Assembly (NCBI GenBank): GCA_900073065.1
Contig: FJOG01000011.1
Span: forward strand, 1,194,882 to 1,258,881
Source of the DNA: Phialocephala subalpina
Lineage: Eukaryota > Ascomycota > Leotiomycetes > Helotiales > Mollisiaceae
Reading direction: 5' to 3'
DNA: 64,000 nt
The translations under genes were made by a program, and so were the position numbers. Below are positions 1,768 through 50,298 of the stretch, piece by piece. A model generated the notes under the pieces. The model did no database searches. It saw only the letters and a list, made by a program, of their open reading frames with translations, and had not been told where the DNA came from. Each line of letters opens with the position of its first letter. Positions within the stretch are counted from its first letter, which is position 1.

Positions 1768-3044
1768 TCAATAATTCTTGATATGCCCATTCTTGTAGAA
1801 GTAGGGCCAATAGTCCTCAACTTCCGTCGCAAGCCACTTCGCAATCGCCGCATTCGTCTCCTCTGTCCAACAAATTAGCACTGGTAAAAGTCATGATTTG
1901 GGATGAGCGCCCCGGGAGTTGGGAGCTGTCTTAGGAGCCTGCATACAAACGGATCGTGTCCGTTTGCTTAATGTATCGGCTGCTACGACAGCTCCCAACT
2001 CCGGAGCTGCCATCAAAAAAACTGCAAATTAGTATGGAAATAAGACGTACGGGGCGCCTCTTGGGCAACGAAATGCCCAGAAGCAATGCTCGCCCATGTC
2101 AACTTGCTCGCAGCTTGTCTCATCCCCTCCGGCAATCTCGAAGTGACCGTGTCGCAGATATTGTCCCACTTGGCCTCGATGAACAGCAATGGCTTTTCGA
2201 ACTGGCCCTCGTTCTTCTGGTGCTTCAGGTTGAACGCTCGATTTCTTTCATGATTCATGTAATACGAGTCCGCAGCGTAGAAGCCTGTCTTCTTCATCGA
2301 TTTGATGAGCTCTTCCAAGACATCCTTCCCCATGATCGAGCTTTCAGCTGGTATTTCGCGCCATTCGGGGAGAGGCTTGGGAATGCCTCCAAACCATCCA
2401 CCGTCTTGGGTAACAGTTGCCGTGAAAGCGGGTTTACCATAGTTGAGAGGTGCCGGTGTTCCAGCGGCCATTGCAACTTTGAGTAGAGCTTCAGGATCGG
2501 AATCGAACCATTCGGTCGCTTTGTCGAAAGATTCCTCATAGAAGACCATATAACTCCATTGACCATATGGAAACTTATCTTCGGGATAAATCTCCCGATT
2601 GACTAGTCTGAGTATGTCTGGGAGCCCAAGCTCAATCGTTCGGTACGGCACGGTCATCAGACATGATGCCTTGATGACTTCTGGATGTGTCGCCATCAGA
2701 CTGCTGAGAACACCCGCACCCCAATCATGGCCGAGCCAGACAGCTTCGGTCCTGGTAGTATGCTCCAACAGAGCGAGCAAACCAGTGAGAATCGTCTCGT
2801 GAGAGTAGTCTTCGCGGACTTTGGTGGATGTTGACTCGCCGTAACCAGGCATGTCGGGAGCGACGACAAGAAATCCTAGAGCCGCGAAGGCATCGATTTG
2901 ATGCTTCCATGTGTATGCGATTCCAGGCCATCCATGCAGAAAGATCAGGAGTTGGCCCTCAGATGGCCCAGCCTTGATGTAGGAGATTTCCTTCTCGCCA
3001 TTGGCCTGGTATTTGACGACCGATCTTGCGTAGGCAGACGCCAT
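1768..3044 (-). CDS. epoxide hydrolase-like alpha/beta hydrolase, two exons
   Basis: Exon 1 runs 3044-2051 and exon 2 1862-1768, separated by a 188-nt phase-1 intron. The spliced protein is 362 residues, normal for soluble epoxide hydrolases, which open epoxides through an Asp nucleophile. Visible landmarks are the oxyanion motif HGWPG at residues 37-41, the nucleophile elbow GHDWGAG with Asp107, a probable catalytic acid in KWDNICD (about residue 294), lid tyrosines, and the catalytic His at 324 in SGHFVAQEAP. Without splicing the frame runs into the intron and stops after SYFHTNLQFF. Splicing restores a typical C-terminus, QETNAAIAKWLATEV followed by EDYWPYFYKNGHIKNY. The intron is an introner-like element (see 1863-2050). 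Confidence 0.88.
1863..2050 (-). repeat. introner-like element, copy 1 (intron of the epoxide hydrolase)
   Basis: This 188-nt intron begins GTACGT (2050) and ends TTGGACAG (1863), with the branch-like TGCTAAT upstream of the acceptor. It contains a perfect 16-nt inverted repeat, ggagttgggagctgtc at 1915-1930 against 1987-2002, enclosing a second stem, caaacgga/tccgtttg (1946-1953 and 1959-1966), with a 5-nt loop. The intron at 41833-42006 in an unrelated gene aligns with it over its whole length, including the CTTATT..CATACTAA block after the donor, the inner hairpin and the branch region. Homology that runs from splice site to splice site defines an introner-like element rather than a transposon that landed inside an older intron. 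Confidence 0.8.
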
Positions 3045-4278
3045 CGTGGGAGGTGAAGCTGTTCAATGAAACTCAAAACAGCAAAAGAGGAAGTGACGAA
3101 AGTCGTAGTACTTATTTAAGTTCAGCAAAGGCAAAGCTATATAGGTATTCAGCTCGGCTTCGGCTTACACGGCGTGGGGTCGAGCGAGTAACTATTGGCG
3201 GGGAGCGATGCGGGGTCAGGGTCAGCAACAAGGGAGCTTCGTCTGACTGCGTCCAACATCAGGTCTCTTGGCTGTTCAATTTTGTACCACTGATAGGCTT
3301 CCAATGTGAACCTTACAGTCTTTCCCCTGGCAATACCAAAGCGAATGCGAGGGACAGCGGCTGTCTCTTGCAATGTGAATACCCCGCGTCGCGCGTCGGA
3401 CCTCGGGTTGCGGCTTGCAAAAACCATATGTTCGTACTGCAGTGTATGAAATACAAGGCTCGTAAGGGACTTGCAAGGAACACTCCAATCTGCTCTCCTG
3501 GATGAGGCTCCCGTCAGAAATAGGCTTGATGAATCTTGAGAATCGAATCATGCATGGCGCGGGACGTCGAGGATCGTCGAGAAGAAGTTGCTGGTGCTGT
3601 TGGACATGCCTAGATAATTAAGGCAAGTGGTTCTAGCTGCCAGTAACGGCTCCTTCAACTTTCAAGAAACATCTGCGGAATTCGGTCTCGACATCTGCTA
3701 CTCGAAAGAGAGATGTCTATAGCGATTCGCAGACCGGAGTCGATAGTTGTGAGGAGTTTGGGCCTGTCCTTGGGCGAGTTTGTTCCATGCAGCCATGCTG
3801 GGGGTCTCTTCGATGCGACCGGTCCTTCAGATCCCCCAACGCTTTCAACATCGTGTTCATAGGGGCCTCTGTCTGCTTGGAAAGCAGAAGAGCCCATATG
3901 CCATCCAATAGCCAAGAGTGTGTGCGGTAGAGCAGAATTGCTCTACACTCCTTCCCGAGATGGGTAATGTATTCGATGCGCCAATGGCTTTTCGCGCTCG
4001 TGGTACGTAGAAGGAGGCCGCATAGCTGAAAGAAGGGGTTGCGAATCGTTTCCCGTTGTTGATTTGTTGCTGGGACTCGTGGTCATTGGGTTTCCAAAGA
4101 TCTTCTTGGGAAAGTGAACAGTTGTGGAGAGCGGATGGATGTCTTTGCGGCCTGGATATCGAGGCACGAAGATTATTCCTGGACCGAAGCAAGTGCCCAC
4201 AAAATGCCTCCGAGAGACACTAGGAAATAATAACACCACGCCACAAACCGTATCGAAGGTGCGTTTGTACTCACGGCA
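3045..4278. other. intergenic, no gene recognised
   Basis: The stretch separates the divergent epoxide hydrolase and MYND genes. Overlapping ORFs of 60 to 160 codons exist on both strands but none shows a known domain, and the reading frames compete with each other. It holds both promoters. The MYND start context (cggcaATGTC) is favourable. Confidence 0.4.
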
Positions 4279-5388
4279 ATGTCTACGAGGAATTCTATTG
4301 AGAACACCAGTGCATCTGGTTCCTCATACAATCAGGAGCAGATCGATACTTGGAAGAAGATCTTCGAAGCAAGCAAACAGCCCACGACGGCCGAAATCCT
4401 AACACCGATTCCCCTGAGAACACTTACTACTCTCCTCAACTACGAACGATGCATATCAAATCCCAGGTTTCGAGGGGTTAAATTGTTACATTCGACCTTC
4501 GCGAGGCCAACCTTCATCGACGGCATGGACCCAGAGGTACGTCGGCAGATCCTTGGTAGCAAGCCTGCGTCGGTGAACCAGGTGCGCCTCCACGTCTTTG
4601 GCATAGACTCTGATTCTGACGAAGTCACTGGAACCCCATCTATGAATGATATCATTCATCCCGATGCTAGTCCCGAGCTTCAAGCTTTGACTTTTGCCCA
4701 GCGAGAGTCAATATATCACGAGTCTCGTGGACATGATGGATGCTACAAAGCTATTTTATTGTATCAGCATTTATTTGACCTTTGCCCTGCAGGGCAAAAG
4801 CTCTCAATCCAAATCAAGAATGAAGCACCAGTTTTGGTAGATCCGTCCGCTCGCAAAATCCTGGAATTCAAGATGAATGGCCCCAAATTGCTCACCATTT
4901 CTACAGGATTGAAAGGGAAGGACGGAGCCATTCTCACTGGATTGGGTCAAGAGAGTTCACACTCTGTTCTTGGATTCTCATGTCGTGGAAGCGGAGTTGT
5001 AGATTTCGTGGTTGACATGACTAGAATGCAGTGGGGAGAGGCAGGGCGAGGTTCATTTGGAGAAACATGCTACTTGGGAACTGAGGCCGGATTCGTTGAT
5101 ATCATGGCCAATGTCTGTGATGGTGTGAAGGAGGTGGGACACGATGCCACACACGTTGGGCCTTCAGAGCATACGATGACTATGGAAGCTTGTGCTACGC
5201 GAGTTTGGGAGCGATGGAACAACCGGGACAAAGAGGGCTGGTGCGACTATTGTGGTGTAGGCGCTTCTGAGTGGCCCTTGTTGGATTGCAGTGCGTGCAA
5301 GGAGACGAAGTTGAGATATTGTTGCAAAGAGCATCAGAGGGCAGCTTGGAAATTGCACAAATTTACTTGTGAGAAGAAGAAAACGTAA
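4279..5388 (+). CDS. MYND-type zinc finger protein
   Basis: This is an uninterrupted 369-residue ORF. The C-terminal 45 residues form a MYND zinc finger: WCDYCGVGASEWPLLDC, then CSACKETKLRYCC, then KEHQRAAWKLHKFTC. The Cys-x2-Cys, Cys-x2-Cys, YC-x3-(H) and final His/Cys ligands are in family order. MYND fingers mediate protein-protein contacts. The first 300 residues resemble nothing I can name, although they are clearly coding (even codon use, no stops). Fungi carry many such proteins with a lineage-specific body and a C-terminal MYND. No SET domain is visible, so a methyltransferase role is not supported. Confidence 0.85.
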   Translation: MSTRNSIENTSASGSSYNQEQIDTWKKIFEASKQPTTAEILTPIPLRTLTTLLNYERCISNPRFRGVKLLHSTFARPTFIDGMDPEVRRQILGSKPASVNQVRLHVFGIDSDSDEVTGTPSMNDIIHPDASPELQALTFAQRESIYHESRGHDGCYKAILLYQHLFDLCPAGQKLSIQIKNEAPVLVDPSARKILEFKMNGPKLLTISTGLKGKDGAILTGLGQESSHSVLGFSCRGSGVVDFVVDMTRMQWGEAGRGSFGETCYLGTEAGFVDIMANVCDGVKEVGHDATHVGPSEHTMTMEACATRVWERWNNRDKEGWCDYCGVGASEWPLLDCSACKETKLRYCCKEHQRAAWKLHKFTCEKKKT

Positions 5389-10740: not shown

Positions 10741-12809
10741 TTATTTCTAGTTTCTTGGTCTATTGAAGTCCTACAAATTATTTCTATTATTTTTACATAG
10801 CGATGATACTACTTTTTGAAAATGAGTTATTTATTAGATTACGGGTCGCTATTAGCCTTCGAATTACCGCTTTTTAACTCCAAATAAAATATCTCCTTAA
10901 TATGTTTTTTCTAATTTCCTTTTATATTATACCTCTCGCAATATTATCCTTCATGAATAATAACGGAATAAAGCGAAAACGTCGATAATTACCTCCTATT
11001 ACACGTGAAGTAATAAAAGCCAAAAAAGCCAAATATAATCAATTTAAGTATTATCCGCCAATTATAAAACCAACGACTAAAAGATATTTTCACGCGGTAA
11101 AACTATAAAAAGAGTATATAATATTCTTAGTATAATATTCTCCGACGTTAACGTGACAAGTTTCTTCAAGATTATATTCACGATAATAGGCTTTCTTTGT
11201 AGCGCCACGAGGATATCTCGTTGATTAAACGCTTAAGATATTTCGTGGAATAAGTATTTAATTCATTTGTTAGCGTTTTGATAAAGCGTATCACGTTAAA
11301 GACTCTTAAAAATACGTGGTTTTGTTTTTGGTTTATATATAAAAGAGAAATTGATAATATTATCTCGGAAAACGTAGGGATGGATATACTTTCCGTAAGT
11401 ATGCAAAATCGATATTTATAAAGAGGCTAACACGAGTCTTAATTTATTAAAATAAAACTTAAGAAGAAAAATCTTATGATAATCCGACGATAAAAAGTTA
11501 TAACTAATATATTAAACGTTATCTAATTATTAATAGGCTTATAATGCTATTATCCAGATAATTTCCTTTATCCCCGGTATATAATATAACTTAACTTCTT
11601 TTTGCTCTTGATAATATATACTAGAGCTAGGCTTAATATTATTATCGAATTATTAGTTTATCGCGGAAGTAACTAAGTAATATATTATAAAGTAAGCTTT
11701 TGATATCCCTTAAAATTATTAAGATTAACCTTTTTTACTTAGGATTTCGAATTAATTAGTCTTTTAATTAGACTAGAAAATACGTTTGAACTTATTTTAA
11801 AGGTTAGATTTTGTTACGAGAAAGGGAATTAAGATTAGGGAGGAAACGATTATAAGGATTACAAATAAGTAGTATTCCGTGAAGATTATACTTGCCGTGG
11901 AAAGTGTTCTATTACTTATTTCCTTGGTCTAATAATAGTTGATAACGTTTTCGATGACTTTAAAAGTCTAGGCCAGGTGAAGTACCTTAAATCTCTAGGT
12001 CTTAATTAGTGTTTACTTTTTAGATTTAAAAAGTCTAAGTTAAATTTGCTTGTCTTTTGGTATTGCGATAAGAGTAATATAATTTCTTTAGACTAAGTAA
12101 TGAATTATAACGAGGTGGTAAGAATTCTTGCGGAATTGGGAATATAATTAGAACTTCGAGATATTTTAAAACCGTATAATCTCCGTCGAGAAGCCGCTAA
12201 TAAATTTGAGGGTAAATTATACTCGAAACTTTTGGATTATAAATTTATGTAGTTAAGTGAAACTAAGATTAGCGCAAATTAGTATATTTAACTCTTAAGT
12301 TATATTATCAAAGTAATAGGGGAGAATTATATATCGAATATATCGGCTATTAATATCTAAGGGATTATAAATAACAAATCGCTTTGATAAGATTATATTT
12401 AAAAACTTCGAAATATAAGATTATATTTAAATTTAAATGCCTTTATTTACTTCCCTTTCTTAGAATATAAAGCTATTTTGGATAATCCGGAGCTTATATA
12501 ACTTGATGCTTATCTTAAGAGCCTCGAAGAAAAACGACGAATAGAAAGTAATAATAGTAAGCTTTATTAATAATATACTCGAGTAATATAAAAACGAAAA
12601 TATTATTTTGAATAATTTTATTATAAAGCTCGCATATAATTTCGAGATAACTTATTTGATCTCATTAACTTAAATAAGTTTCGAAAGATAATCCAAAACG
12701 GCGAGAACGAAATCTTTGCTAATAAAAACAACAAAAAACCGCTCGAAGTTCCTTGTCTTAAATTTATATTATCCGCCCATTTTCTTGATCGCTTTATGGT
12801 CGCCAATAG
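10741..12809 (+). pseudogene. RIP-degraded DUF3435-like (tyrosine recombinase-type) gene relic
   Basis: The DNA is very AT-rich and dotted with stops, yet plus-strand reading yields coherent stretches across changing frames. Examples are ITLKTLKNTWFCFWFIYKRE near 11300, YITQLNFFLLLITYTRARLS and IIIESLVYRE near 11570-11680, and LRDILKPYNLRREAANKF near 12160-12215, in the family order. The TYTGARPxxxxES-like block and the later LRR-AAN block are what DUF3435 proteins carry; this family includes Starship captain recombinases. Stops sit where Trp, Gln or Arg would be expected, which is RIP-type damage. The reading reaches the LTR at 12810, so the retrotransposon appears to have inserted into this gene. 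The assignment is by eye only. Confidence 0.45.
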
Positions 12810-13155
12810 TATAACGGTTGGCTCGCTCAACTAATTATAAGGTTGGTTGTATATGATAAAGATTAAGTGATTCCAATAAAAAGTAATATTTAAGCCTTGT
12901 TACCAAGTATAATATTAAGATATTATATTTAAGTTGAGCACGAAACTCTTATTTAAGGGAATCTTATCTGCTTATATAAAACCTTCTTACTCCTAGATCC
13001 CAGTGGATCCCTTGGAGTCCCCTGGAGTCCCACGGGGCTCTAACGGCTCCGTTACGTGACTTTAAGTCCCGTGCTCCCATGATTCTAGGGTCTATTATAA
13101 ACGAGCTTACTCGCTTATTGAGCTTATAGTCTACTAGATCATATGGGTTATAATA
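12810..13155 (-). repeat. 3' LTR of the chromovirus
   Basis: This is 346 bp, the same length as the copy at 19364-19709. The AT-rich flanks of the two LTRs differ by many transitions, but a GC-rich core (about 12985-13090) including gatcccagtggatccc and ggagtcccctggagtccc is nearly identical. A TATATAAAACC motif is conserved in plus orientation at about 12974. Confidence 0.85.
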
Positions 13156-13243
13156 TTATCCCTCTTTTAGCTAGCGTAGTCCCGACGCTTAAAGCGAGGT
13201 AAAGAAATATTATCCTAAGGTTATAATTTTTTTTTTTTAATAT

Positions 13244-13808
13244 ATCCTCTGATAGCGTTCGTAAATATAAAGAAAGAATTAAATTTGCCCGCGATATTAA
13301 AAACGCAAGTTTTAAAATGATACCTTATTCGCATTATATAAAAGAAAACCGGAAGTACGTAATAGCTTCCGAAAAATCGTTTTATTATATTAAGTGCATT
13401 TGTCGCAAGTATTGTGATAATTTATTTAATACCTAGGAGAAGAACGTTCCTCGGGAAAGTAATTAGGAAGTTATTAATCGGCAAGAACATAAGCTAAAGG
13501 AGTAAGAGGAGGAGGTAATAGCGAAAATATTACGTTTCCGGAAATAACATCATTTGCTTCGTGAGCGCCGCTCTAAAATGGCTATTTGAGGCCTTCGTTT
13601 TCTTGACGAGTTAGATGCTATAAAGGCAAAGGAGAAGGAGGAGCAAGAATGGCGCGAGCGCGAAGGCTCCATCGTATCTAGGCTTATCTTTTCCGACGCG
13701 ATTAATTTGTCCGCGGTCCTTGGTCTAGCCGACTAAAACATGGACCCTGCTTTCTGGGCAACCCTAGGTTTTAACGGTAAAACGATTTAAGCTTCTCAAG
13801 GCAGCTAA
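13244..13808 (+). pseudogene. antisense accessory ORF inside the chromovirus, RIP-interrupted
   Basis: One plus-strand frame reads through about 188 codons with only stop-type interruptions: SFYYIKCICRKYCDN, then VINRQEHKLKE, LLRERRSKMAI, GLRFLDELDAIKAKEKEEQE and MDPAFWATLGF. The stops fall at positions where Trp, Gln or Arg fits (TAG, TAA, TGA). The chain has a Cys cluster, a charged coiled-coil-like middle and a terminal PAFWATLGF. I recall similar ORFs accompanying fungal LTR elements, but I know of no function. Its 3' end overlaps the chromodomain codons of pol on the other strand by about 40 nt, and it sits downstream of the plus-strand TATA-like motif in the LTR. Confidence 0.6.
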
Positions 13809-14226
13809 GATTCCATTTGGGTTCCCATGTGTTTTCCGAATATAGGTATCCTTGCCATTTGATCAAATATTTAACTTGTTTTTTGACGCGTTAATAATCT
13901 AGGATATCTTCTATATTATATTCGGCGTTTAGGTTAATTAGTTCGATTTTAACTTTTAAAGCTCGCGATGCTCCTAGTAATGCTAGTTCGAGGAGGGATA
14001 TATAAAATACTGGGTGTATATTTATATTACTAGGTAAAATAAACTTGTAATTAATTAGACTTTTAATCTTTTTGATTTTATATAATCCGATTTTCTTATA
14101 ATTTAATTTATTGCTTAATCGTTTCGTTTTGATATTCCGACGAATTAAATAAACTTTATTCCCCTTTTTAAGCGTAAGTTCTATATTATAATGCCTATTA
14201 TAATATAATATTAATTTAATAGCCAT
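13768..14226 (-). pseudogene. integrase C-terminal region and chromodomain of the chromovirus
   Basis: An open stretch (14226-13891) reads KKGNKVYLIRRNIKTKRLSN, then KLNYKKIGLYKIKKI and INIHPVFYISLLELAL, the typical GPY/F-like end of gypsy integrases. After a stop it continues RVKKQVKYLIKWQGY, then SENTWEPKWNLSCLEKL, a chromodomain with its aromatic and W-E-P residues. Chromodomains steer integration to heterochromatin. Several residues show RIP-type changes. Confidence 0.8.
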
Positions 14227-14571
14227 AAATTATATATCTTCTGCAAGTCTTTCGCGTAAAAACTTTAACCTATTAATTTAAATCCTGGCATTTTGTGCTT
14301 TTAACTCTACTAAATATAATAATTAATATACCTTTAATTTATACTCATAATTAGTATAAAAGGGCAAAACTTTTATATTTTTTGTTATTATATTATTATA
14401 CGCGAATTATACTAATAGCAAAAATTCCGCCTAATTATTTTATTAGTAATTAACGTAATAATAAAGGTATATTTCCATAACCTAATTTAATCGTTTTATT
14501 TATTTGTTTATCTAGGGGTAAAAAGCTATTAAAAGCTTTTATTTGATTCCTAGTAGTACGATTAGGGTAAT

Positions 14572-14796
14572 TTAGAATTTCGAAGTAAAAAGCTTATTTT
14601 GGTCTAAAATAATCTCGTTTAATACCCCGTGGTTAACTACTATAATCCGCAAGAATATATAAGCCAAGTTTTTTGCCGTATATATCTTAGAGTATAAGAT
14701 CATATATGCGTATTTCGTGAGCCTATCCGTAATCATAAAGATAATATTATATTTAATACTTGATATTAGTTTTCTTGAGGGTAATAATTTTACCAC
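14572..14796 (-). pseudogene. integrase catalytic core fragment of the chromovirus
   Basis: The reading contains FMITDRLTKYAYMILYSKIY, then TAKNLAYIFLRIIVVNHGV and ILDQNKLFTSKF, matching the gypsy integrase core (V-DRLTKYAHF, HG-P--I-SDR---FTS-FW). The first catalytic Asp is present and the SDR Asp appears as LDQ. Stops bound the fragment on both sides. Confidence 0.78.
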
Positions 14797-15802
14797 GAAA
14801 TCCCAAGTAATAAACTTTTAAGCGCCTAAAGATATATTTAGTAATCGCATATTACTATAAGGAATATGCCTCGTGGCTTTATTCCGAATATATGTATCGC
14901 ATTTACTAATAACCTTAATAGCTTTCCCCTTAAGTCTTAAAATATAAAAATCCCTAGAGATTTACTTTATGGTTTTCGTAATTCCTTGGTATCCATAAGC
15001 TAAGAGTTTATACTATATCTTAATAAACTCTAATTAGAGGTTCTTAGGAATATAAAGTTTCCCTTGGAACTATAAAGCTTTAAACTTATTTATAAATAGC
15101 CTTATTAGTTATTATAAAGTTATCTTTGCGATAAAATCCTTATCGTAATTTCCTTTGAAATCATTAATAAGTATTATATCGATTAACTTCGAAATAATGG
15201 TAATTATTACCCCGTTAAATACTAAGCCGCTTTTAACTTCTTTAAGTATTATATATAAAAGTAATTTAATATCGTCTTAATATTCTAATTTCCGACTAAG
15301 AGTATTTACTTTACCGTTTTTTGATTCCTTAATATATAAAATCTTAAAGTTATATATAATTAACGTTTTAACTTATTATATTTATCTTCGATTAAATTCC
15401 TTTGTTATAATAAAAAATACTAAGTTCTTATGGTTAATATATACTTATACTTAATATTTCGATTTTTCTAAATAAATTCTTTATATTTAAAACGCTTTTA
15501 TAATCGCAAGTAGCTTTTTATTATAAATTTCATAATTTAATTTTATTAGTAATATTTTGCGAGAATAATATGCGATTAGTTACTATTTGCCTTACTCGCC
15601 GGGCTAATTAAATATTACGCTAATTATAAAGTCTAATATATTCGTTTTGATAACGATATATTTATCTAAGTTAAACGTAAAAAGGAATAATATTTCCGTG
15701 AAGCGTTATTTGAGTTAATTAAAGGCGCATTAGGCTTTATTTATCTATTTAAACGTTTAGTCCTTTTTCGTTAATTCCGTTAAGGGAATTATCACCGCAA
15801 AA

Positions 15803-16190
15803 NNNNNNNNNNNNNNNNNNNNNNNNNNNNNNNNNNNNNNNNNNNNNNNNNNNNNNNNNNNNNNNNNNNNNNNNNNNNNNNNNNNNNNNNNNNNNNNNNN
15901 NNNNNNNNNNNNNNNNNNNNNNNNNNNNNNNNNNNNNNNNNNNNNNNNNNNNNNNNNNNNNNNNNNNNNNNNNNNNNNNNNNNNNNNNNNNNNNNNNNNN
16001 NNNNNNNNNNNNNNNNNNNNNNNNNNNNNNNNNNNNNNNNNNNNNNNNNNNNNNNNNNNNNNNNNNNNNNNNNNNNNNNNNNNNNNNNNNNNNNNNNNNN
16101 NNNNNNNNNNNNNNNNNNNNNNNNNNNNNNNNNNNNNNNNNNNNNNNNNNNNNNNNNNNNNNNNNNNNNNNNNNNNNNNNNNNNNNNNNN
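15803..16190. other. assembly gap (388 N)
   Basis: The run of N interrupts the RT/RNase H region of the chromovirus. The sequence on both sides is equally AT-rich and belongs to the same element. Confidence 0.99.
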
Positions 16191-16740
16191 TACCCTTATA
16201 TAAAGCGTTAGTAAAAGTTCGCAAATCCTAAAAAAGACTATATATCCTTAATTATCTTAGGTACTTATTAACTAAGTATTATTAATACCTTCGTAGGGTT
16301 TATTAATAAGCCTTTAGCTAAGATTACATAGCCTAGGAAATCTATTTTTTCCATATGAAATTCGTATTCCTTAGGTTTATAAACTAAGTTTATATCCCTT
16401 AAAGTAGTTAATACCACTTTAATATTATTAATATATCTAGCGAGCATTTTAAAATATATTAAAATATTATCTAAATAACAAATAATTATAATATCTAAAA
16501 ATAGCTATAAAATAATATTTATTATGCGTATATATATAGCTAATATATTAATTAAGCCAAATAATATAATTAAATATTCGTAATATCCGTGTTTTATTCT
16601 AAACGCTATTTTTTATTCTTTTCCTTTTTTTATTTAAACTAAATTATAAACTCCACGCAAATTTAACTTATTAAAAACCTTAGCTCCTTGAAGTTTATCA
16701 CATAGCTTATCTACTAGTAATAATAAATATTAATTCTTAA

Positions 16741-16860
16741 TAATAATCTCGTTGATTTTCCGGTAGTTAATATATAATCATTTCGATCTATCTTTCTTTG
16801 GTATAAATAATATTAGGCTACCTACTAATAAAGTCGATAATCATATAAATCCTTTTATTA
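16741..16860 (-). pseudogene. reverse transcriptase fragment of the chromovirus
   Basis: The minus strand reads KGFIWLSTLLVGSLILFIPK, then KDRSKWLYINYRKINEI, which aligns with the conserved RT block [32 protein letters not shown] of gypsy elements. Further RT and RNase H sequence lies on both sides but is broken by stops and by the N gap. Confidence 0.75.
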
Positions 16861-18739
16861 AATTCTTATCGATATATTCCTTAAGTATCCTCAAGTCGTC
16901 CGCCAATATCTAGTAAATAGGCAAATATAATGATTCCTTTCCGTTTTATAGGGGTATCTCGTAGTCTTATTGCCTATACTTAGGGAGTACTTTAATTTCT
17001 TTCTTATTCCTAAAAAAGTTTAAAAACTCGTAGTATTTTATTAGTATTTACTTTAATAATAAATCTTAGGTATAATATCCTAGTTCTCTTAAGGAAATAG
17101 CGTAAATTTCTTTTTAGTTATTCGTTTTTATCTCGATAAACGAAATCCTATAAATTTAATATTTATTAAATATAAGTATTTTCTTAACCTAATTAATCAT
17201 TAGGTTATACTATCTAATTTATGGCATCCCAAGTATAAATAAGTAATTAATATTTACTACGTCAAAGTTTATTCTCTTAGTATATCCTCGTTATATAATT
17301 ATAATTTACGGTATTATTTCCACGTTAATTTATTCGGAATTTAACGGGCTTTTATTAACTATAATAATAAGGTATAATCGTGATTTGATTATTATAGCCT
17401 ATTTATTATTTAATATTAATTATTTTAACACGTAATTACTTATTACTCCCAAATCGATTATTACTTTAATCTTATATATACTTATTTATACCATATAAAA
17501 TAATTATCCGGCGTTTCTTCTAACGATATAAACCTTTTTATACCATTATTTACTAAGTATATCTTCCCACTAGTAGCTTAACCCGTTAGCGTAAATAAGC
17601 CGGAATATACGCCCTATACCAAGTAGTAACTATATTACTCGTTTAAAGGTTTCCTCGTGATATATAAAATCGTTTTTTATATTTTGCCACGTTTTTCGGC
17701 TCGCGCTTTCCGCGAATACCTCGTAATATCGCCCTATTACGAGTTCGTGATTAAGTATAAGAAGAATATTATTTAGTATAAATAGCTATTATATATAATA
17801 GCTAGTATTATTACGCTATTTCCATTTAATCCGTTGATAATCTTAATATATAACTTCGTATATTTGGCCGTATTTTGGTCCTCTCGAATTTAATTACGGT
17901 TTAATATACTAAGCTTCTTTATCCAGATTTTGCTATTCGCGAGTATAAACTATAAGATTATCTTCTCGTTAATAGATATATTACTCTTATTTTACTCGTG
18001 GGTAATATTCTGGTTAAAAGCTTAATGCTATAAGAGACCCTAATAACCCCTAGTTATTATATCTTAGTGGTTCTTCGTCCTTTGACTTAGAGTTTTCCAC
18101 AAATAGCTAATAACGGTTAACTAAAGTCTTAATTCTATCGAATTACCTTACTAAATCGTTTATATTATCGTTTATTCTATTAATCCTTTGCTATTAATTA
18201 TCCTTTAAAAGCTTTTCTCTTGCCGCTTATCTAGCGAAGTTTATTACTTACTCCTTTTAGAACCTCTAAAGGTTTTCTTCGGGGATTAATCAAAACGTTC
18301 TTAAATCGTCCTTTAGTTTAAACCACTTATTTTAAATGTTAATTTATTATTCGTTTAATTTCTCGTTCGTATATAATACTCTCCTCGTGATTATATATAC
18401 CTAATAGGGTTTATTATAACCTCTACGTTTAATCGCGTTAACTTATTTCTTCGGGCGTTTATTTTATGGTTTTTTATTCCCATATAAACTAACTATATAT
18501 CCTGGAAGGCCATATTCAAAGTATAACTTCTTTTCGTGATATCGATTTATTTTTTCTTTAGAGGATTATTTTTTCTTTCCCTTAAAGGTAACGTTAATCT
18601 CTATAAGTTACAATTAGTAACTATAAGAATTGGAGTTCTTTTTGCTTAATTTCTTATAATTATACCCGATTAAATATTATCCCTTTTTCTCTAAAGATTA
18701 TTTAAATAATTAATTATCGATTTAAATTATTATATTAAT

Positions 18740-19030
18740 TATCTTTTATAAGTCCTTAGGTTTATCGCGATATATAAACTCGTTTTTAATTATATCCCGA
18801 AGCCTTTTATAAAATTAAACCATTAATATTTTGTTATTCTAATTAATATATCCCACGTATTATTAAAACTTAGCTATATAGGCAAAAGTAGCGCCATATT
18901 AATATAGCCCTTAGAGCTTCCTTTCAACTAATCTTTCTTTATTCATATCTCTAAATGCCTTGGAAATCTTGCTCTTAAACCTATTAAAAGTTCTAAAGAT
19001 TTCCATAATAAAGTTATCCCATTTGCTGGC
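18740..19030 (-). pseudogene. gag fragment of the chromovirus
   Basis: The minus strand reads EIFRTFNRFKSKISKAFRDM, then NKERLVERKL and ATFAYIAKF, with stops between. This matches the capsid region of fungal gypsy gag (AFGD-D-ER-AE--L--L-Q---A--YA--F). It lies between the 5' LTR and the RT, as expected. Confidence 0.65.
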
Positions 19031-19363
19031 ATTTAATCCGCAATTAAAGTAATCTTTTTATGCCATTTTAATCTAATTAAAAGTAATACTTATAAGAAAA
19101 GTAATTACTTATAATATTTCCTTAAATTTTGCCCTAAATTTATTTTTATTAAACTTAATATATATCGTGTATTATATAAAGTAAAGGCATAGCTTATTTC
19201 GTGTTTTATTATATGGGTTAAATTCATGAACTTTTGGCGTTTTAGAAACCGCGCTAATCTCGACCGATAATAGTATAAACTTAAGAGTTAATTTGGTAAA
19301 TAAGGATCTAATAATAAATATAATAGAATATTTAACTAGTATTATAAGAGATAATACTCAAAG

Positions 19364-19709
19364 TATAACGGTTAGCTCGCTTAATTAACTATAAGGTTAG
19401 TTATATATGATAAGGACTAAGTAATTCCAATAAAAAATAATATTTAAATTTTATTACTAAGTATAATATTAAGATATTATATTTGAGTTAAGCATAAAGC
19501 TCCTATCTAAGGGAATCTTATCTGCTTATATAAAACCTTTTTACTCCTAGATCCCAGTGGATCCCTTGGAGTCCCCTGGAGTCCCACGGGGCTTTAGCGG
19601 CTCCATCACGTGACCCTAAGTCCCGTGCTCCCATGATCCTAGGGTTTACTATAGACGAGCTTACTCGCTTACTAAGCCTATGGTCCACTAGATCATATGG
19701 GTTATAATA
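19364..19709 (-). repeat. 5' LTR of the chromovirus
   Basis: This is the 346-bp partner of 12810-13155, beginning tataacggtt and ending gggttataata on the plus strand. On the minus strand these read as the TG...CA ends expected of an LTR, after C-to-T/G-to-A change. The same GC-rich core and TATATAAAACC motif are kept. Confidence 0.85.
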
Positions 19710-21900
19710 AACGGCTTCTAGAGATAAACTTCTTATTATGATTTTATTCCGGATATTAGCCTTATTTAAAGTTATTACTATAATCGGAGATATATATCAC
19801 TTAAGCGTACGCGTTTATGATAGAGGGTAATCGTAAAGTAAAATCAAAAATGCTATTTATTATTATCGTCTTGTCGAATCTAAGAGCTCGAGGTTTACTT
19901 TCTTATGGAAAGCATGCTTACGCTAGGCATATAGCTTAAAACACGTGATATTTATTCTAACAAAAGTCTTTGTAATCTCTATAATCCAGAAGAATATATC
20001 TATTACTACTTAGAAGAAGCACCAATCGAAAGTTACTACCTAATTTATAATTAGCAAATAGTAAATATTTCTAATAACTAGTAAACGGATTATATACACG
20101 ATTACTTTAGTCGTATATATAAAGAGAAAGCAAAAGTAATATTCTCGCTAACGCGTTTTTAGCATTATAAATAAGGGAAATGCAAAATTATATTCGTCTA
20201 AAAATCTAATTACTTTCCAAAAGACTTTGCTAATGATATATTCGATGTTAAATAGTAGCGAAATCTTAGAGCCAAAGAGTCGAAACGCTTGAATGATTTG
20301 AGGCGCAAAAAAGGGTTTAACGTTAGTCCTAATTAAGTAATTTAATCACGAAAGTCGATATTAACTTACTTTATATAATATTTGGCGAAAGATTTAACTT
20401 TTTGTCTTTAAGACAAATATAGTCTTTAGTGCGCTTCCGAGTAAGATCTTAAGCGTTACTTGTGAAAGTCACATAGAGTCACCTTAAAGCAGACCTATTT
20501 TGAGCCGAAGTTTTACTTCGAGTATCTCGATAATAGTTAATTTACTAATGAATTCGATTGAGAAAATTATTGCGAGATTTATATAAAAGCTTTTTATTAT
20601 AGTCTTAATCTCGCATGGTCTTATTATATGCTTATAGCTGGTCTATAGTACCTTTTCTATCTGAATACTAAAATGTTATTCTCGAAGCGATTTATTTAAT
20701 TTATGAATAAAGGGATATTTAACCGTTATATAAACGGCTATAAAAAGGCTTTTTGCGATTATCCGCTAAAGTATCCCGTTTAACTATGTATAAAAGACTT
20801 ATTTCCAAGTTATTTCGAGTTATAAATTCATTTTTTTAACGTTTATAATTATAAGTTAAAGGGATTTACGCGTAATCGTGGATTATAACAGAATAATATT
20901 AAGTCTTGCCTATAGCCCGATTATTTGCAAGAGCAAAATAATATGGAATATAACGTTAACGAGATTAAAGATATATTTAAAGAGAAGTTTAATAATTAGG
21001 TACTTGATTTGGAAGATAAGAGCAAAAACGGGGAAAATGATTAGGCGAATAATAGTGATAATAGATCAAAAGGTGGAATAAAGGATAGTATTTTACTTTT
21101 GAAAGATTAAAGTAAATGGAAGTTATTAGATGTTTATTTATGTAAACGTTAGAAATACTAAGAAACTTTTGATTTTCCCACGCAACCAAATTCCCTTGGA
21201 GGTCCCCGCAAGCGATAATTTCGTAGTGAGCTAGCCTTAGGCCTATAGTTGGCAACTTATGTAACTGCAAGATTTAGTCACCCGCGACCTTAATGAAATG
21301 CACTATCTTAAGCATATGAAAAGTAAGACAACGCGGAGAAATTATAAATATTGCCACTTGAATATACTTTATATTTAAGCTGCGTCACGCGAAGGTCGTC
21401 GATTACCTTGTCCTATACTATTAACCGCAATTCTCGAGGGAGATATTACTTTGATACTTCGTATTTGGTTTTGTCCACTCATTGATTTCGTTGATATTAC
21501 ATATGGAGGTAACTTTAATTAGACGTTTCTATTGAAAAGGACATCAAAAGTAATAATTAATGCTCTCGCTTATATAACTATATTAGGATAGAGTGGGAGC
21601 CTCTTGATTTACGCGCTTAAACGTATAATAGGTTACCAAGGTATCCAACAAAAGTGGTTAATCGCTTGGCGTCTCACTAGATGCCTTTATTCGAGTAAAT
21701 CGAGCTATGATCTAGATCTTAGACCTCGGATCTTAGATATAAAGGATGCGGGCGTTTGATAAGGATATAGCCGCTAAGGCCGTATTTGATATTCTTATTC
21801 GAGTAGGCTAAGCGTAATACGGTTTTCTAGATCTTAGACCTCGGATTTGGGAGACGAAGAATGCAAAAGGGGGCCGAGAGGCGGGGAGGGGTAGGGAGGG
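19710..21900. other. AT-rich, RIP-damaged sequence beyond the chromovirus
   Basis: This presumably continues the host element into which the chromovirus inserted. Patches of plus-strand reading without stops (for example TIIGDIYHLSVRVYDRG near 19780, and an acidic tail near 21000-21080) suggest the DUF3435-like relic continues, but I cannot assign domains. At 21711-21734 and 21826-21849 a 20-bp motif (ctagatcttagacctcggat) is repeated as part of a roughly 110-bp degenerate repeat. Base composition returns to normal near 21860. Confidence 0.45.
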
Positions 21901-22189
21901 GTTTAATAGGGATAGGACAAAGCGAGCGCCTCATTTAGTATCTAAGTATTAAGCTAGGATAACTGAGATCCCGAAATCTTGAACTGAGATTCAGAATAAT
22001 CGGGATTAGGACTAGAATCCCAAAAAGGAAAGAGGGGGAATAGCTACATCTTAGTTAATCTCGTGCTATTAATAGCATTCCTAACAACTTCTAACCCGCT
22101 GTATACTTCTCCTTATTTCTCAGGCTGGTTGGCGTTTGCGGGTTGCACGGGATTGGTTCATTAGCACCCGCAGCTCGATTCTGCCTTCA

Positions 22190-41061: not shown

Positions 41062-42082
41062 CTACGAAGTATGAACAAACGTCTCCCCAGCAACATTCAG
41101 TGCATCGTTGGTAACAAAGTAGTCAGCCATGAATGGGCTATACCGATCAATATAGCTCTGAGCATCCAGCCATGGGATGGCAACGTCTAAGAAGTTGCTC
41201 ATAAGCTGGACGTCACTAGTTGGCATTGGCGAGAACTCGGTGACCCAGATGAGCATGGTGGTCCCGAAGAAGCTATTCACCTGGCTTGCTGTCGATTCAA
41301 TGTAAACGATGAAGGAATTCGCCTGGTCCACGGCACTTTGTCCAGTTGTCCCATACCAATGTAGTGCCTGAGCACTGCATCTGAACTGCGACGGCCCCTC
41401 TCCACTCGGGGGCTTGATGTTGGTAAAATCTTTCAACCACGTGAGGCCCGAGGGTCCCCCAGGAGGCCGCTGGCTGGTTATCGGAGGTGATGGCAGGGCA
41501 GACAAGGCTTGCGCCCCCGTCGTAGAACTGGAACATGTCGTCGCCCCAAGCGTTGTATGCGGCTTGTGGCGAGGCATCGCAGCCGCCGTTGGCATTCGTC
41601 ATGTCGGGCTCGTTGTAACCCAGCACCCACGGGCTATCGTTCTTGATCATGGCGAGGACGGCAGCGGTATCGCCTTCACTACCCGGGCCCTAATACATAG
41701 GGATTTGCTGGAACAAAGGCGCGTCTGCGGTTGAGGCCCAGTTATAGGCCCAGGTGGTGGAGCCAGATGTGGATAGGACGCTGGTGAGGGCGCCATTGCT
41801 GTAAGCCAGGCCCTTCTTGTCGCCATACGGGGCTTTAACTCATTAGCATATTGAAAAGCCATTTTGATTGATGGGAGCTCCCAGAGCTGGGAGTTTTGGG
41901 GGAGGTGCAAACAGATTGTGTCCGTTTGTTGCTCCTGAAACAACTCCTAGCTCCTGGAGCTCCCATAAGAAACGGTAGGATTTTAGTATGAGAATAAGTT
42001 GCTCACCATCAGAGCGTCGAGTCAGGTTTGCCAGTGCTACTGTCACAACTGCTACCAAGGCTGTAGCAAAAAAGGCTTTCAT
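41062..42082 (-). pseudogene. GH128-type (asl1-like) glycosyl hydrolase pseudogene
   Basis: The ATG at 42082 begins a signal peptide (MKAFFATALVAVVTVALA). After a 174-nt phase-1 intron (42006-41833) comes the asl1-like glycosidase domain: KKGLAYSNGALTSVL, TWAYNWAS, VLGYNEPDM (with the acid/base Glu), TWLKDFTNIKPPSG, ALHWYG and MLIWVTEFSPM (with the nucleophile Glu). GH128 enzymes cut beta-1,3-glucan and are secreted or wall-bound. Two lesions are seen: TAG at 41691-41693, where PM-W-G is expected (Trp to stop), and one extra G in the GGGGG run near 41457, which shifts the frame. Both catalytic Glu residues remain, so inactivation looks recent. Confidence 0.8.
41833..42006 (-). repeat. introner-like element, copy 2 (intron of the GH128 gene)
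   Basis: This 174-nt intron runs from GTGAGC to AGTTAAAG and is homologous over its length to the intron at 1863-2050. It shows the CTTATT..CATACTAA block after the donor, an imperfect inverted repeat (gggagctcccagagctggga at 41873-41892 against its partner at 41945-41964; 20 of 23 positions pair over the full 23-nt arms), the inner stem caaacaga/tccgtttg with loop ttgtg, GGCTTTT, and a TGCTAAT branch before the acceptor. Like copy 1 it interrupts a codon in phase 1. The host genes are unrelated. Confidence 0.8.
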
Positions 42083-42660: not shown

Positions 42661-43525
42661 GGAGTCCATCCTGCAAGATCGAAAGGTTTCTCAGACCGTA
42701 TTTCGAACCCGGGACGTAAGCCTGAAAATTCTTGAAAGATCATTTTCAACAGTCGATCATTGATTACTGTACTTCCATCACAAAAAGACTAATTTTTGTA
42801 TCGAAATCAGACCTTGTACTCTTAATAATTATAGAGGAAACTAGCGACCAAAAACATAGAGCAATAAGTGATATTAGGGACTTGGCCCCTGCCTACTTTT
42901 GACTACACCGCGCCCTAGCTGTGGAAGTCATGCAGGAACTTCCTGTAGGATCTAGAAGATCAGATGAAGTGGTTCGTGCTCGCGAACAAGGAAACCGGAC
43001 AGCGCCAGTGAAAACATTAGATCACAGTCATGCAGGCCATGCCTCGTGGTGACAAGCTTTGAGCCCTTGTAAGTCAGGGTCTTGCATTCGAATGACGAGA
43101 GGCTTTCTTCGCTCTGGCCCTGGCCACAAATTGAATGAGGAAGGCGACTTCCAAAATCTAGCTAGGAAGGATTCAAAGGACTATATCGATTCCTACCGTC
43201 TGCCTACGCGGACTTCTAGCCAATGGCACTCCCCGGCTCGCATTAAAAACCCCTTAATGCCTTCCTATCTAAACGTGACCCTTCAAAAGAGCAGGAGACC
43301 AATTACTTTCCTCACATACAGATGTTTAATGAACTGTGCCTTTGAAAACGAAAGAAGAAAGAACGTGGTGATAGAAAGGGGAGCTGAAAGGGCCAGCTGT
43401 CACGTGCCCTAATTTGGACCGCGCTGGAACATTCTTGAGGATATAAAACCGCTGGTTCTGCCATAGAAAACAAACAACCCCCAACCCCTTCCACCGTCCC
43501 TCCCCCTCCAACTCCAACTCGACCT
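42661..43525. other. no gene recognised
   Basis: Mixed sequence without a supported gene; a C-rich tract lies at 43480-43525. Confidence 0.4.
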
Positions 43526-44026
43526 GCTCGTTCGTGGGAGGGAGCGTGCGGTTGTGGTACCGCGGAAGGCTCCATCCCACCTGATACTAGTGGGCCAGTT
43601 AGCCTGACACAAAAAAAGAGCTTGAATGGAAGGAGCAAAACCAGATATATAACGACTCAAGCAAGGAAGAACGTATGAGCTGGAGCTTCAGCCCTCAAAA
43701 TGCAAACGAAAGAGAAATCAAAAATGCAGATTAGTAGTTGGGTGGGTGACCACCAGCGAATACCTGCTGTTGTATGCTCGTTCGTGGGAGGGAGCGTGCG
43801 GTTGTGGTACCGCGGAAGGCTCCATCCCACCTGATACTAGTGGGCCAGTTAGCCTGACACAAAAAAAGAGCTTGAATGGAAGGAGCAAAACCAGATATAT
43901 AACGACTCAAGCAAGGAAGAACGTATGAGCTGGAGCTTCAGCCCTCAAAATGCAAACGAAAGAGAAATCAAAAATGCAGATTAGTAGTTGGGTGGGTGAC
44001 CACCAGCGAATACCTGCTGTTGTATG
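43526..44026 (+). repeat. exact tandem duplication of a 250-bp unit ending in a 5S rRNA fragment
   Basis: The unit starting gctcgttcgtgggagggagc begins at 43526 and again at 43776, and I see no difference between the copies. The last 46 nt of each copy (43731-43776 and 43981-44026: ttagtagttgggtgggtgac, then caccagcgaatacctgctgt and tgtatg) are the 3' end of fungal 5S rRNA. The other about 204 bp are unrelated to 5S. The duplication must be young compared with nearby decay, and is apparently untouched by RIP (it is well below the usual length threshold). Confidence 0.85.
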
Positions 44027-48381: not shown

Positions 48382-50298
48382 TCATCTTCGAGCACTGAGC
48401 GTGACCTCGAAATCCTTATTGTACGCTACACCGCCAGCGACAACATATCGACCTTGATTGATCACCTCGACATCGAATCGTCGAATAATCTAGAGAACAA
48501 TGTCAGTTCTACTACAGGTGATTGGATGCGGGATTTCAAAGTGTGGCTCACCTCTGGAAGGAGTTTGTACAGTTCCATAATTGCGATGTCCTTTCCCAAG
48601 CAGACTCTCGGTCCCATGCCGAAAACAAAGCTGCATGCATCATATTCATTCGCCTTCTGAGTGCTCTCAAGCCATCGCTCTGGGCGGAAGCTGTCTGGGT
48701 CTGGGGCATAGAGAGTAGGATCTCGTTGAACCACATATGCATTGCTAGTGATTTCTATTCCTGGGGGGATAAAATGCCCATCGATCGTCTTACCTTCCTT
48801 GCCCGCGACTCGAGCGAACAGGTTGGTAGCCGGTGGTTCGAGGCGAAGAGATTCCTTGATACAGGCCACGAAATATGGTAAATGGACTCGAACCTCCTCG
48901 TACTGAACGGGAGTAGAGAGTTCCCCGGCAATATCAGCAGCTTCGATCTCCTGCCGTGCACGGGACATTTTCTCGGGATTTGTTGAGAGAAATCGAAGGG
49001 TAGATCCGAGAGCCGTTCCAGTCGTGTCTGCTCCTGCTTGAATGAGCAGGGCGACATGAGCACGCTTCTGCACAGGACTGAGTGGCTCGCCATCAATTCG
49101 AGCGTCAAGGGCGCTGTGCATTAGTCAGAATTCTGTATTTAGTGATAGATAGGTCCAGCTTACTGTTGCATGAAGTCAGGCTTTTCAGGACAGATTTCGT
49201 TGCTCAGCTGAGCTTCGCGATCGGTAACCTGCTTATCAGCTTGTGATATCAACCAGCCCATACCAGTGTCGTTGGAATAGGCAGGGAGCAACCACACGTT
49301 GAAACCTGGAATTTTCATAATGACTTCTCGAAAGAATCTAAAGCGTCCGACAAAGCCAAAGAAGTCGAGGCCTTGCCTCCAATTCATGAGAATTTGATGC
49401 TCATCACGACTATTGGCGACGAAACCCCACGGTTCTGTGAAGGAGAGCATGGTCATGATATCGGCTGCAAATTCCCTGCAGAGAAATTAGTCCGAGACAC
49501 TGTGGTGATGTGGGAAGCACTTACGCTACTTTGTCTGACAAGCATACTTTCTCGTGAGTTTCAGCTCTCTGGTTCATTTTTCTAACGAAAAGTGACACTT
49601 GGTCGTCGATTCTGCTCTCCCAGCTCTTTTTTAACCCACCAATGGACCACGGCGCATTCGAAAGGGCCTTCCTCAGTCCCTTGTGGTATTCTCCATCGAG
49701 CGTAGTGAATAGATGAGGCGGTCCCAGAACCCCAGAACCATAAAGACCAGATTTTTGGTTGCACTTTGGATCCCAATATATTTCCTTCAGCGCAGAGGGT
49801 TTAGGGAAGAGTAGCATTGTTGGTGAGATGCGAATTGGAGTATTGGCTGTGAGGAATGGTTATCAGCCTTATACAGCGAGCCCAGGAAATGCGCAACCTT
49901 TGCAATCTCCTAGCCTTGCCTGGGACATTCAAGGCATACCTCCCCCAACAAAAGACGTTCGTTGGCTTGAACAGCAACGTGAATTCAAAAGGAGTATCTC
50001 AGCCCAGCCTAGGCTTTGCCATTCTCCAGGACAGGCTGGGAGATTGAAGACGCTGAAAATGCGAATAGGTGTACGTACTTCCATATTTCTTGACGAGGCC
50101 ATGAAGCCAGTGTGGCTCAATCCGAAGCACCGAGATGATGGCGCCAGACAGTGAGAATGCTGATGTATACCACGGACCAGGATATTTGGAAAGAGGGTGT
50201 AGACTGATATTGTAAAAAGCTCGAAAGAAGAGGGACGATGCGATAGCGACTGCTATTAACATGAGAATCTCCACTAGCGTGGCTTGAACACCAGCCAT
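48382..50298 (-). CDS. cytochrome P450 monooxygenase
   Basis: The N-terminus at 50298 has a membrane anchor (MAGVQATLVEILMLIAVAIA) followed by the Pro-rich hinge HPLSKYPGPW. Internal exons show the I-helix LIQAGADTTGTALGS, the ExxR motif in CIKESLRLEPPA, the PERW block (FRPERWLES) and the heme loop FVFGMGPRVCLGKDIA with the Cys ligand. A last intron (GTGAGC...CTCTAG) leads to IIRRFDVEVINQG and a stop at 48384-48382. It is an ER-bound haem oxygenase of about 500 residues, probably secondary metabolic or detoxifying. The subfamily is not determinable here. Confidence 0.88.

Follow-up and report, generated by a model that had tools for sequence, protein, structure and literature searches.

A dispersed family of hairpin introns in Phialocephala subalpina, with lineage-specific base preferences beside the insertion point

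The window analyzed here, a stretch of 64,000 nucleotides from Phialocephala subalpina, contains two introns of similar sequence on its minus strand. One interrupts an epoxide-hydrolase-like gene (copy 1) and the other a GH128-like gene (copy 2). The features of both genes are as follows.

1863-2050, minus strand: copy 1 of the introner (lineage A), a phase 1 intron of 188 nt in the epoxide-hydrolase-like gene
2024-2050, minus strand: donor GTACGT and the 5' core CTTATTTCCATACTAATTTGC, conserved family-wide
1978-2002: second arm of the main inverted repeat
1946-1966: inner hairpin core CAAACGGA..TCCGTTTG, inverted in 14 of the 66 modelled copies
1915-1939: first arm of this repeat, its bases 92% complementary to those at 1978-2002 (the main inverted repeat)
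1874-1880, minus strand: branch-site motif TGCTAAT
1863-1865, minus strand: acceptor CAG
1771-1862, minus strand: 3' exon of the epoxide-hydrolase-like gene, stop codon at 1768-1770
2051-3044, minus strand: 5' exon of the epoxide-hydrolase-like gene, beginning at the open frame's first Met, the putative start codon
41833-42006, minus strand: introner copy 2, a diverged phase 1 intron of 174 nt with acceptor AAG, placed closest to lineage C by the intron tree
42007-42082, minus strand: 5' exon of the GH128-like gene, with a signal peptide (MKAFFATALVAVVTVALA..) recognized by eye
41690-41692, minus strand: in-frame TAG in the next GH128-like stretch, the further match lying in another frame

Copy 1 runs from GTACGT to ACAG and copy 2 from GTGAGC to AAAG. 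A sequence-only reading of the window had placed both introns at these positions on the minus strand and described them as related, and this was borne out by nhmmer, which with copy 1 as query against the 64-kb window recovered copy 2 over query positions 6-182 (E = 1.6e-10), as well as by copies elsewhere in the genome. Plain blastn gave E = 0.002-0.003 for the same pair. The window pair alone is a modest match, and it is the genome-wide family that settles the kinship. The inverted repeats and the inner stem CAAACGGA/TCCGTTTG were found again in the window introns, and both introns were in phase 1 in the best spliced frame, as that reading had it. Its further claim that splicing restores the protein held for one gene and needed correction for the other. 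When copy 1 is removed, the junction reads HFVAQEAP|QETNAA, and the alignment with EphA is gapless there. When copy 2 is removed, the signal peptide is joined to a start that reads as GH128-like, but a Pfam scan of this spliced start piece alone gave no match, and downstream the Glyco_hydro_cc (GH128) match shifts to another frame past the TAG. The GH128-like gene (window 41200-42082, minus strand) thus looks damaged; an extra small intron is possible.

Elsewhere in the window, the region from about 11000 to 22000 is AT-rich with many A/T-rich repeats, and two segments of it (12808-13107 and 19362-19661) are similar to positions 3645-4053 of one of the loci retrieved from the genome (L013; loci are numbered with an L below). 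It looks like a decayed transposon region. Positions 43525-44024 form a perfect tandem duplication of 250 bases.

The genome (68.1 Mb in 119 contigs, with the window at 1194882-1258881 of one of them) was searched with both introns, a check proposed together with the first reading. At least 54 matches were obtained with copy 1, many of them full length at 70-85% identity, and at least 4 matches at 3 places, itself included, with copy 2. Two further members used as queries gave at least 43 matches (best non-self 98% identical) and at least 32 matches (best non-self 92%). The lists of 54, 43 and 32 overlap and each of them is a lower bound. Loci were retrieved with about 3 kb on each side (40) or with shorter flanks (30), and a profile search followed by end-fitting yielded 69 candidates, of which 66 were kept after removal of two fragments in L038 and of L077. 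These 66 modelled copies are also a lower bound, from a census that favours copies close to the queries. With up to 3 mismatches allowed, the 5' core CTTATTTCCATACTAATTTGC had 57 hits in the genome against 2 for the reversed control, and the 3' core had 92 against 13. Nearly all copies start with GTACGT, GTAAGC, GTATGT or near variants and finish with CAG, TAG or AAG; the donor of L063 is apparently lost. Because the fitting sought GT and AG within about 10 bases, this agreement arises partly by construction, and the unfitted view gives the same ends.

Thus, the two window introns are true relatives within a dispersed family of introner-like elements (ILEs). The hosts are unrelated: in pairs of copies that are 97.6% and 95.9% identical the flanks have nothing in common, and an all-against-all comparison of the flanks (300 nt on each side) found only two related pairs, the two copies in one gene and the second introner family described below. 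Two copies of the family lie about 540 bases apart at L015:2614-3358, seemingly in one gene. The proposal of an ILE family in unrelated hosts is therefore upheld by the genome-wide copies, by their GT and AG limits and by the protein domains that run across the exon junctions; the description of the family as old needs correction, since the most similar pairs show that it is not only old. Short copies of 97-107 nt (L046, L062, L063) have no strong hairpin and L076 is another short copy; these look like decayed or cropped versions.

Most of the elements have a stable predicted fold. The fold z score was below -3 in 51 of 66 copies (median -4.4) and in 1 of 61 neighbouring exons (median -0.1). 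The 14 copies with an inverted hairpin core are adjacent in the intron tree, so that one inherited inversion would explain them, at nodes that are weakly supported and in a grouping to which the core itself contributes. RNAalifold gave no common pairs for the family, for which the inverted cores may be the reason, and the family profile was accordingly built from sequence only. Near-terminal pairing of the intron ends, of the NTIRE type of stwintrons, scored no higher for the two ends of one copy than for ends taken from different copies (p = 0.66). A [D1,2] stwintron was considered and rejected: GT is often preceded by a base other than G, and about 18 nt lie beyond the possible inner acceptor.

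Several lines of evidence indicate that the copies lie in protein-coding genes. Flanks of 390 nt or more were available for 61 copies, and in 53 of these removal of the element left a sense frame of 100 codons or more; random cut-outs of the same loci pass at 37.6%, so that this test alone is weak and only supportive. When the element was retained, the best frame was broken in all 61. The spliced frame was longer in sense than in antisense in 53 of 61 copies and longer in antisense in 8. Among the latter, a sense Pfam domain was present in L021, L041, L047 and L049, while L013, L026, L056 and L066 were outside the Pfam scan; L026 shows no convincing sense gene. The scan covered sense products only, 30 of the 66, hand-picked for long or recognizable frames. 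In 25 of these 30 spliced proteins a Pfam domain runs across the exon junction, counting L016 (below the Pfam cut-off), L049 (which barely spans the junction) and L018 (donor uncertain), and in L020, L022, L027, L035 and L062 no Pfam domain across the junction was found. Protein and profile have equal lengths across the junction in a glutamate synthase (L011) and a HisKA protein (L057), and differ by one or two residues in the sugar transporters L028 and L045. The data thus support the view that the copies behave as introns, probably excised by the spliceosome. Phase 1, seen in both window introns and first taken as a shared trait, does not characterize the family: the 53 copies with a long spliced frame comprise 19 in phase 0, 15 in phase 1 and 19 in phase 2.

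The histidine kinase gene of L057 (HisKA and HAMP domains) made it possible to examine the insertion at base level. Its protein match is split in two by the copy. Paralogue 1 (89% identical) is unbroken through the site in a frame of 950 residues, and paralogue 2 (75% identical) also continues through it, with a stop within the matched stretch; 17 of 33 protein matches in the genome cross the site without a stop. In the DNA alignment, the empty sites CCAATG^AACGG and CCCATG^AATGG face the filled site CCCATG|intron|AATGG. The insertion in L057 was therefore seamless, with no target-site duplication and no base lost; its junction carries a one-base ambiguity, because the last exon base is the same as the last intron base. 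For the oligopeptide transporter of L010, 9 of 26 paralogue matches (24-43% identity) cross the site without a stop. These paralogues of the same genome, used here as substitutes for orthologues, may point to gain rather than loss of copies.

Across 61 copies and 400 offset pairs (-10 to +9 on each side), no target-site duplication adjoining the element was found. The strongest excesses lay inside the element. Outside it, positions -10/-9 with +3/+4 and -3/-2 with +7/+8 agreed at 0.39-0.43 against 0.25-0.27 expected from 40 shuffles; these do not adjoin the element and were taken as chance. No terminal inverted repeats were found at the element ends either, as the inverted self-matches are internal and the ends are GT.. 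and ..AG. A mostly intergenic position with target-site duplications, which the sequence-only reading had named as the mark of a MITE, was not what the sampled copies showed.

Other repeats were seen in the same loci. Nine places in the genome carry members of a second introner family, about 119 nt long (GTAACCTACCC..CTAATTCGTTGTAG). A third introner-like family (GTGAGTCGACTTCTC..GTAAACAG) measures about 147 nt in L009. A fourth intron-like repeat extends from GTAAGCCCAATTTCTC.. to a branch-like site CTGAC/CTAAC, with two copies within 600 bases. One further element, whose L033 copy has inverted ends (CAGCGTTTTCAATCTCCCAGCCT), is MITE-like and not obviously an intron. Their positions are as follows.

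L030:2643-2762 and L038:3352-3469, minus strand: second introner family
L009:2686-2832 (minus strand), L038 near 4664-4733 (minus strand) and L036:3435-3560: third introner-like family
L015:5701-5827 (minus strand), L034:5394-5515 and 4825-4944 (plus strand): fourth intron-like repeat
window 49896-50056, L033:416-577 and L046:3915-4048: MITE-like element

The bases beside the insertion point differed between lineages of the family. This pattern was first noticed in groups made by end sequence, and the groups were then set from a tree of the intron sequences only, as A, B, C and E, with D as the remainder, which for this reason is mixed and not one lineage. The base before the intron is C in 10 of 12 copies of lineage A, G in 17 of 19 of lineage B, G in 16 of 22 of group D and T in 4 of 6 of lineage E; no preference was found at this position in the 6 copies of lineage C. 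In lineage B the two preceding bases are TG in 16 of 19 copies (background of TG 6.9%) and the following base is G in 13 of 19. The second, unrelated introner family mostly has A before (7 of 9 places) and T after (8 of 9). When the labels were shuffled, p was about 5e-5 at -1 (the lowest value that 20,000 shuffles can give), 1e-4 at -2, 9e-4 at +1, 0.16 at +2 and 0.05 at +3. With the second family and the copies added later left aside, p was 0.0005 at -2, 0.0005 at -1 and 0.002 at +1, and elsewhere only -12 (p = 0.001) and +3 (p = 0.04) stood out; the signal at -12, one among 30 positions, was taken as chance. Over all copies, a Mantel test related flank similarity to element similarity at -2,-1 (p = 0.002) and at +1 to +3 (p = 0.004); inside lineages A, B and D it gave no significant inheritance of the flanks.

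Seven later copies, which had played no part in the first recognition of the pattern, were placed in lineages by eye (L069, L078, L082, L084, L086, L071, L076): G precedes 3 of 4 copies in D, T precedes the single copy in E, and two copies in B have CC and GG. Thus, the lineage bases are a strong preference and not a rule. Copies with uncertain ends or lineage were kept out of the flank statistics (L074, L066, L037, L073, L018, L017, the second copy of L015, L063), as were L077, L081, L083, L085 (A before) and L087 (G before), where ends or lineage were unclear or masked. The TG copies of lineage B lie in all three phases (8, 1 and 7 in phases 0, 1 and 2), which points to a preference for nucleotides and not for one reading frame. 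Also, TG was already present at both empty sites of the L057 paralogues. It follows from the lineage-specific bases that the choice of target, or survival after insertion, depends on the lineage.

Fungal introner-like elements are already known as a kind: van der Burgt in 2012 reportedly described them in Dothideomycetes (Fulvia fulva, Dothistroma), and DNA-transposon introners are said to have been described in algae by Huff in 2016. As portrayed in the passages concerned of PMC8469720 and PMC4457414, the ILEs of Dothideomycetes resemble the present family in being similar hairpin introns that lie in unrelated genes and carry both splice sites, and their content is unique to each species. PMC8469720, citing van der Burgt 2012, gives their site preference as AG/GY, whereas here the flanking bases vary by lineage and are mostly not AG, a comparison made by description only. 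The sister stwintrons and cropped introns of Hypoxylaceae and Xylariaceae, as described in PMC8469720 and PMC12403724, are also seamless, without duplications and with inverted repeats, and those accounts likewise involve the coding strand and paralogues without the intron. However, the present elements are single introns and not nested twins, and the near-terminal pairing of intron ends described for stwintrons (PMC12403724) finds no support in them. In the passages of Fekete and co-workers on the exons bordering stwintrons no base bias is reported (PMC12403724, PMC8469720), in contrast to the lineage-specific bias seen here.

In a survey across eukaryotes, ascomycete introners appear as an outlier without duplications or terminal inverted repeats, most other introners bearing signs of DNA transposition which, by that account, the ascomycete ones do not bear (PMC9860276). 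The present family is like them in both respects. The survey presents the introners of Alternaria as direct insertions (PMC9860276). Compared with what its passages on ascomycetes describe, target bases resolved by lineage, paralogous empty sites at base level and an inverted core were seen only here. Algal DNA-transposon introners, which according to the same source have target-site duplications and take one splice site from the target (PMC9860276), are alike in being dispersed and in making introns, but neither the duplications nor a target-derived splice site was seen in our copies. PMC8469720 and PMC9860276 discuss reverse splicing as the model that earlier authors preferred for the ILEs of ascomycetes. 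A search by title and abstract, over literature without most subscription journals, found no paper on lineage-specific introner targets, and no paper with the letters of the 5' core CTTATTTCCATACTAATTTGC was found in the literature searched. The lineage-specific bases beside the insertion are possibly new.

We consider it very probable that the family belongs to the fungal introner-like elements. These are then non-coding hairpin introns that bring their own donor, branch site and acceptor and enter coding exons in sense orientation; splicing would leave the host protein unchanged. An RNA route appears the likelier way of spread: the excised intron RNA would re-enter transcribed DNA or mRNA through reverse splicing or some similar reaction, and would then be copied to DNA. 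The splice-to-splice ends and the sense direction fit this route best, since the spliceosome would set the ends. That these are ordinary old introns, alike through shared splice signals and gene duplication, is hardly credible: splice signals are indeed common to all introns, but the similarity covers the whole intron, up to 97.6%, between hosts with unrelated flanks. An intron-making DNA transposon or MITE of the kind found in Micromonas and other algae, where the target-site duplication supplies a splice site, could account for the long inverted repeats, the genome does contain a MITE-like element with inverted ends, and the lineage-specific bases resemble the target preference of an integrase. 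We nevertheless judge it very unlikely, since the inverted repeats are internal and not terminal, both splice sites belong to the element, no duplication adjoins any of the 61 copies and the two empty sites of one copy are seamless. Another proposal is break repair with template switching, in which a broken exon is mended from a donor gene, the switches falling where 1-3 bases match on either side of the donor's intron, so that each lineage keeps the flank bases of its donor. It would explain why bases at -2, -1 and +1 are linked to lineage with little further out, as well as the lack of duplications, and hairpins are known to promote template switching; 14 copies carry an inverted core. However, it predicts that some donor exon would often be copied as well or the copying would stop short, giving imprecise copies outside genes, of which none came to notice among the sampled copies; and within lineages A, B and D, more similar elements do not have more similar flanks. 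We regard it as improbable, with some weight left to it.

Even under the RNA route, the lineage-specific bases are not predicted by simple reverse splicing that is blind to the flanks. They would be accounted for if the intron paired with its target, or if repair made use of short homology with the exon ends of the donor; selection acting once the element is in place may add to the effect. In its strongest form this last idea reduces the pattern to a filter, by which only well-spliced contexts survive and no targeting takes place. New introns will certainly come under selection for splicing; yet the donor is GTACGT in lineage A, in lineage E and in most of D, where it follows C, T and G, respectively, a difference not readily derived from a filter on donor strength, and exon ends in TG, C or A are not the AG usual before an intron. 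We find the filter doubtful as the whole cause. A sequence-guided insertion, in which each lineage would inherit a preference for one to three bases around the insertion point through pairing of intron RNA and target or through homology of donor exon ends, is a tentative proposal, to which we give somewhat less than an even chance.

The origin of new spliceosomal introns is still an open question, and the present genome provides material with which to approach it: dozens of copies, some of them in pairs that are 96-98% identical, an empty site at base level and at least one unrelated introner family. The lineage-specific bases are a definite pattern for which any mechanism put forward has to account. 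If insertion is indeed sequence-guided, guided placement would replace blind reverse splicing or random breaks, and new spliceosomal introns would be placed by a lineage-specific recognition, somewhat as group II introns choose their targets.
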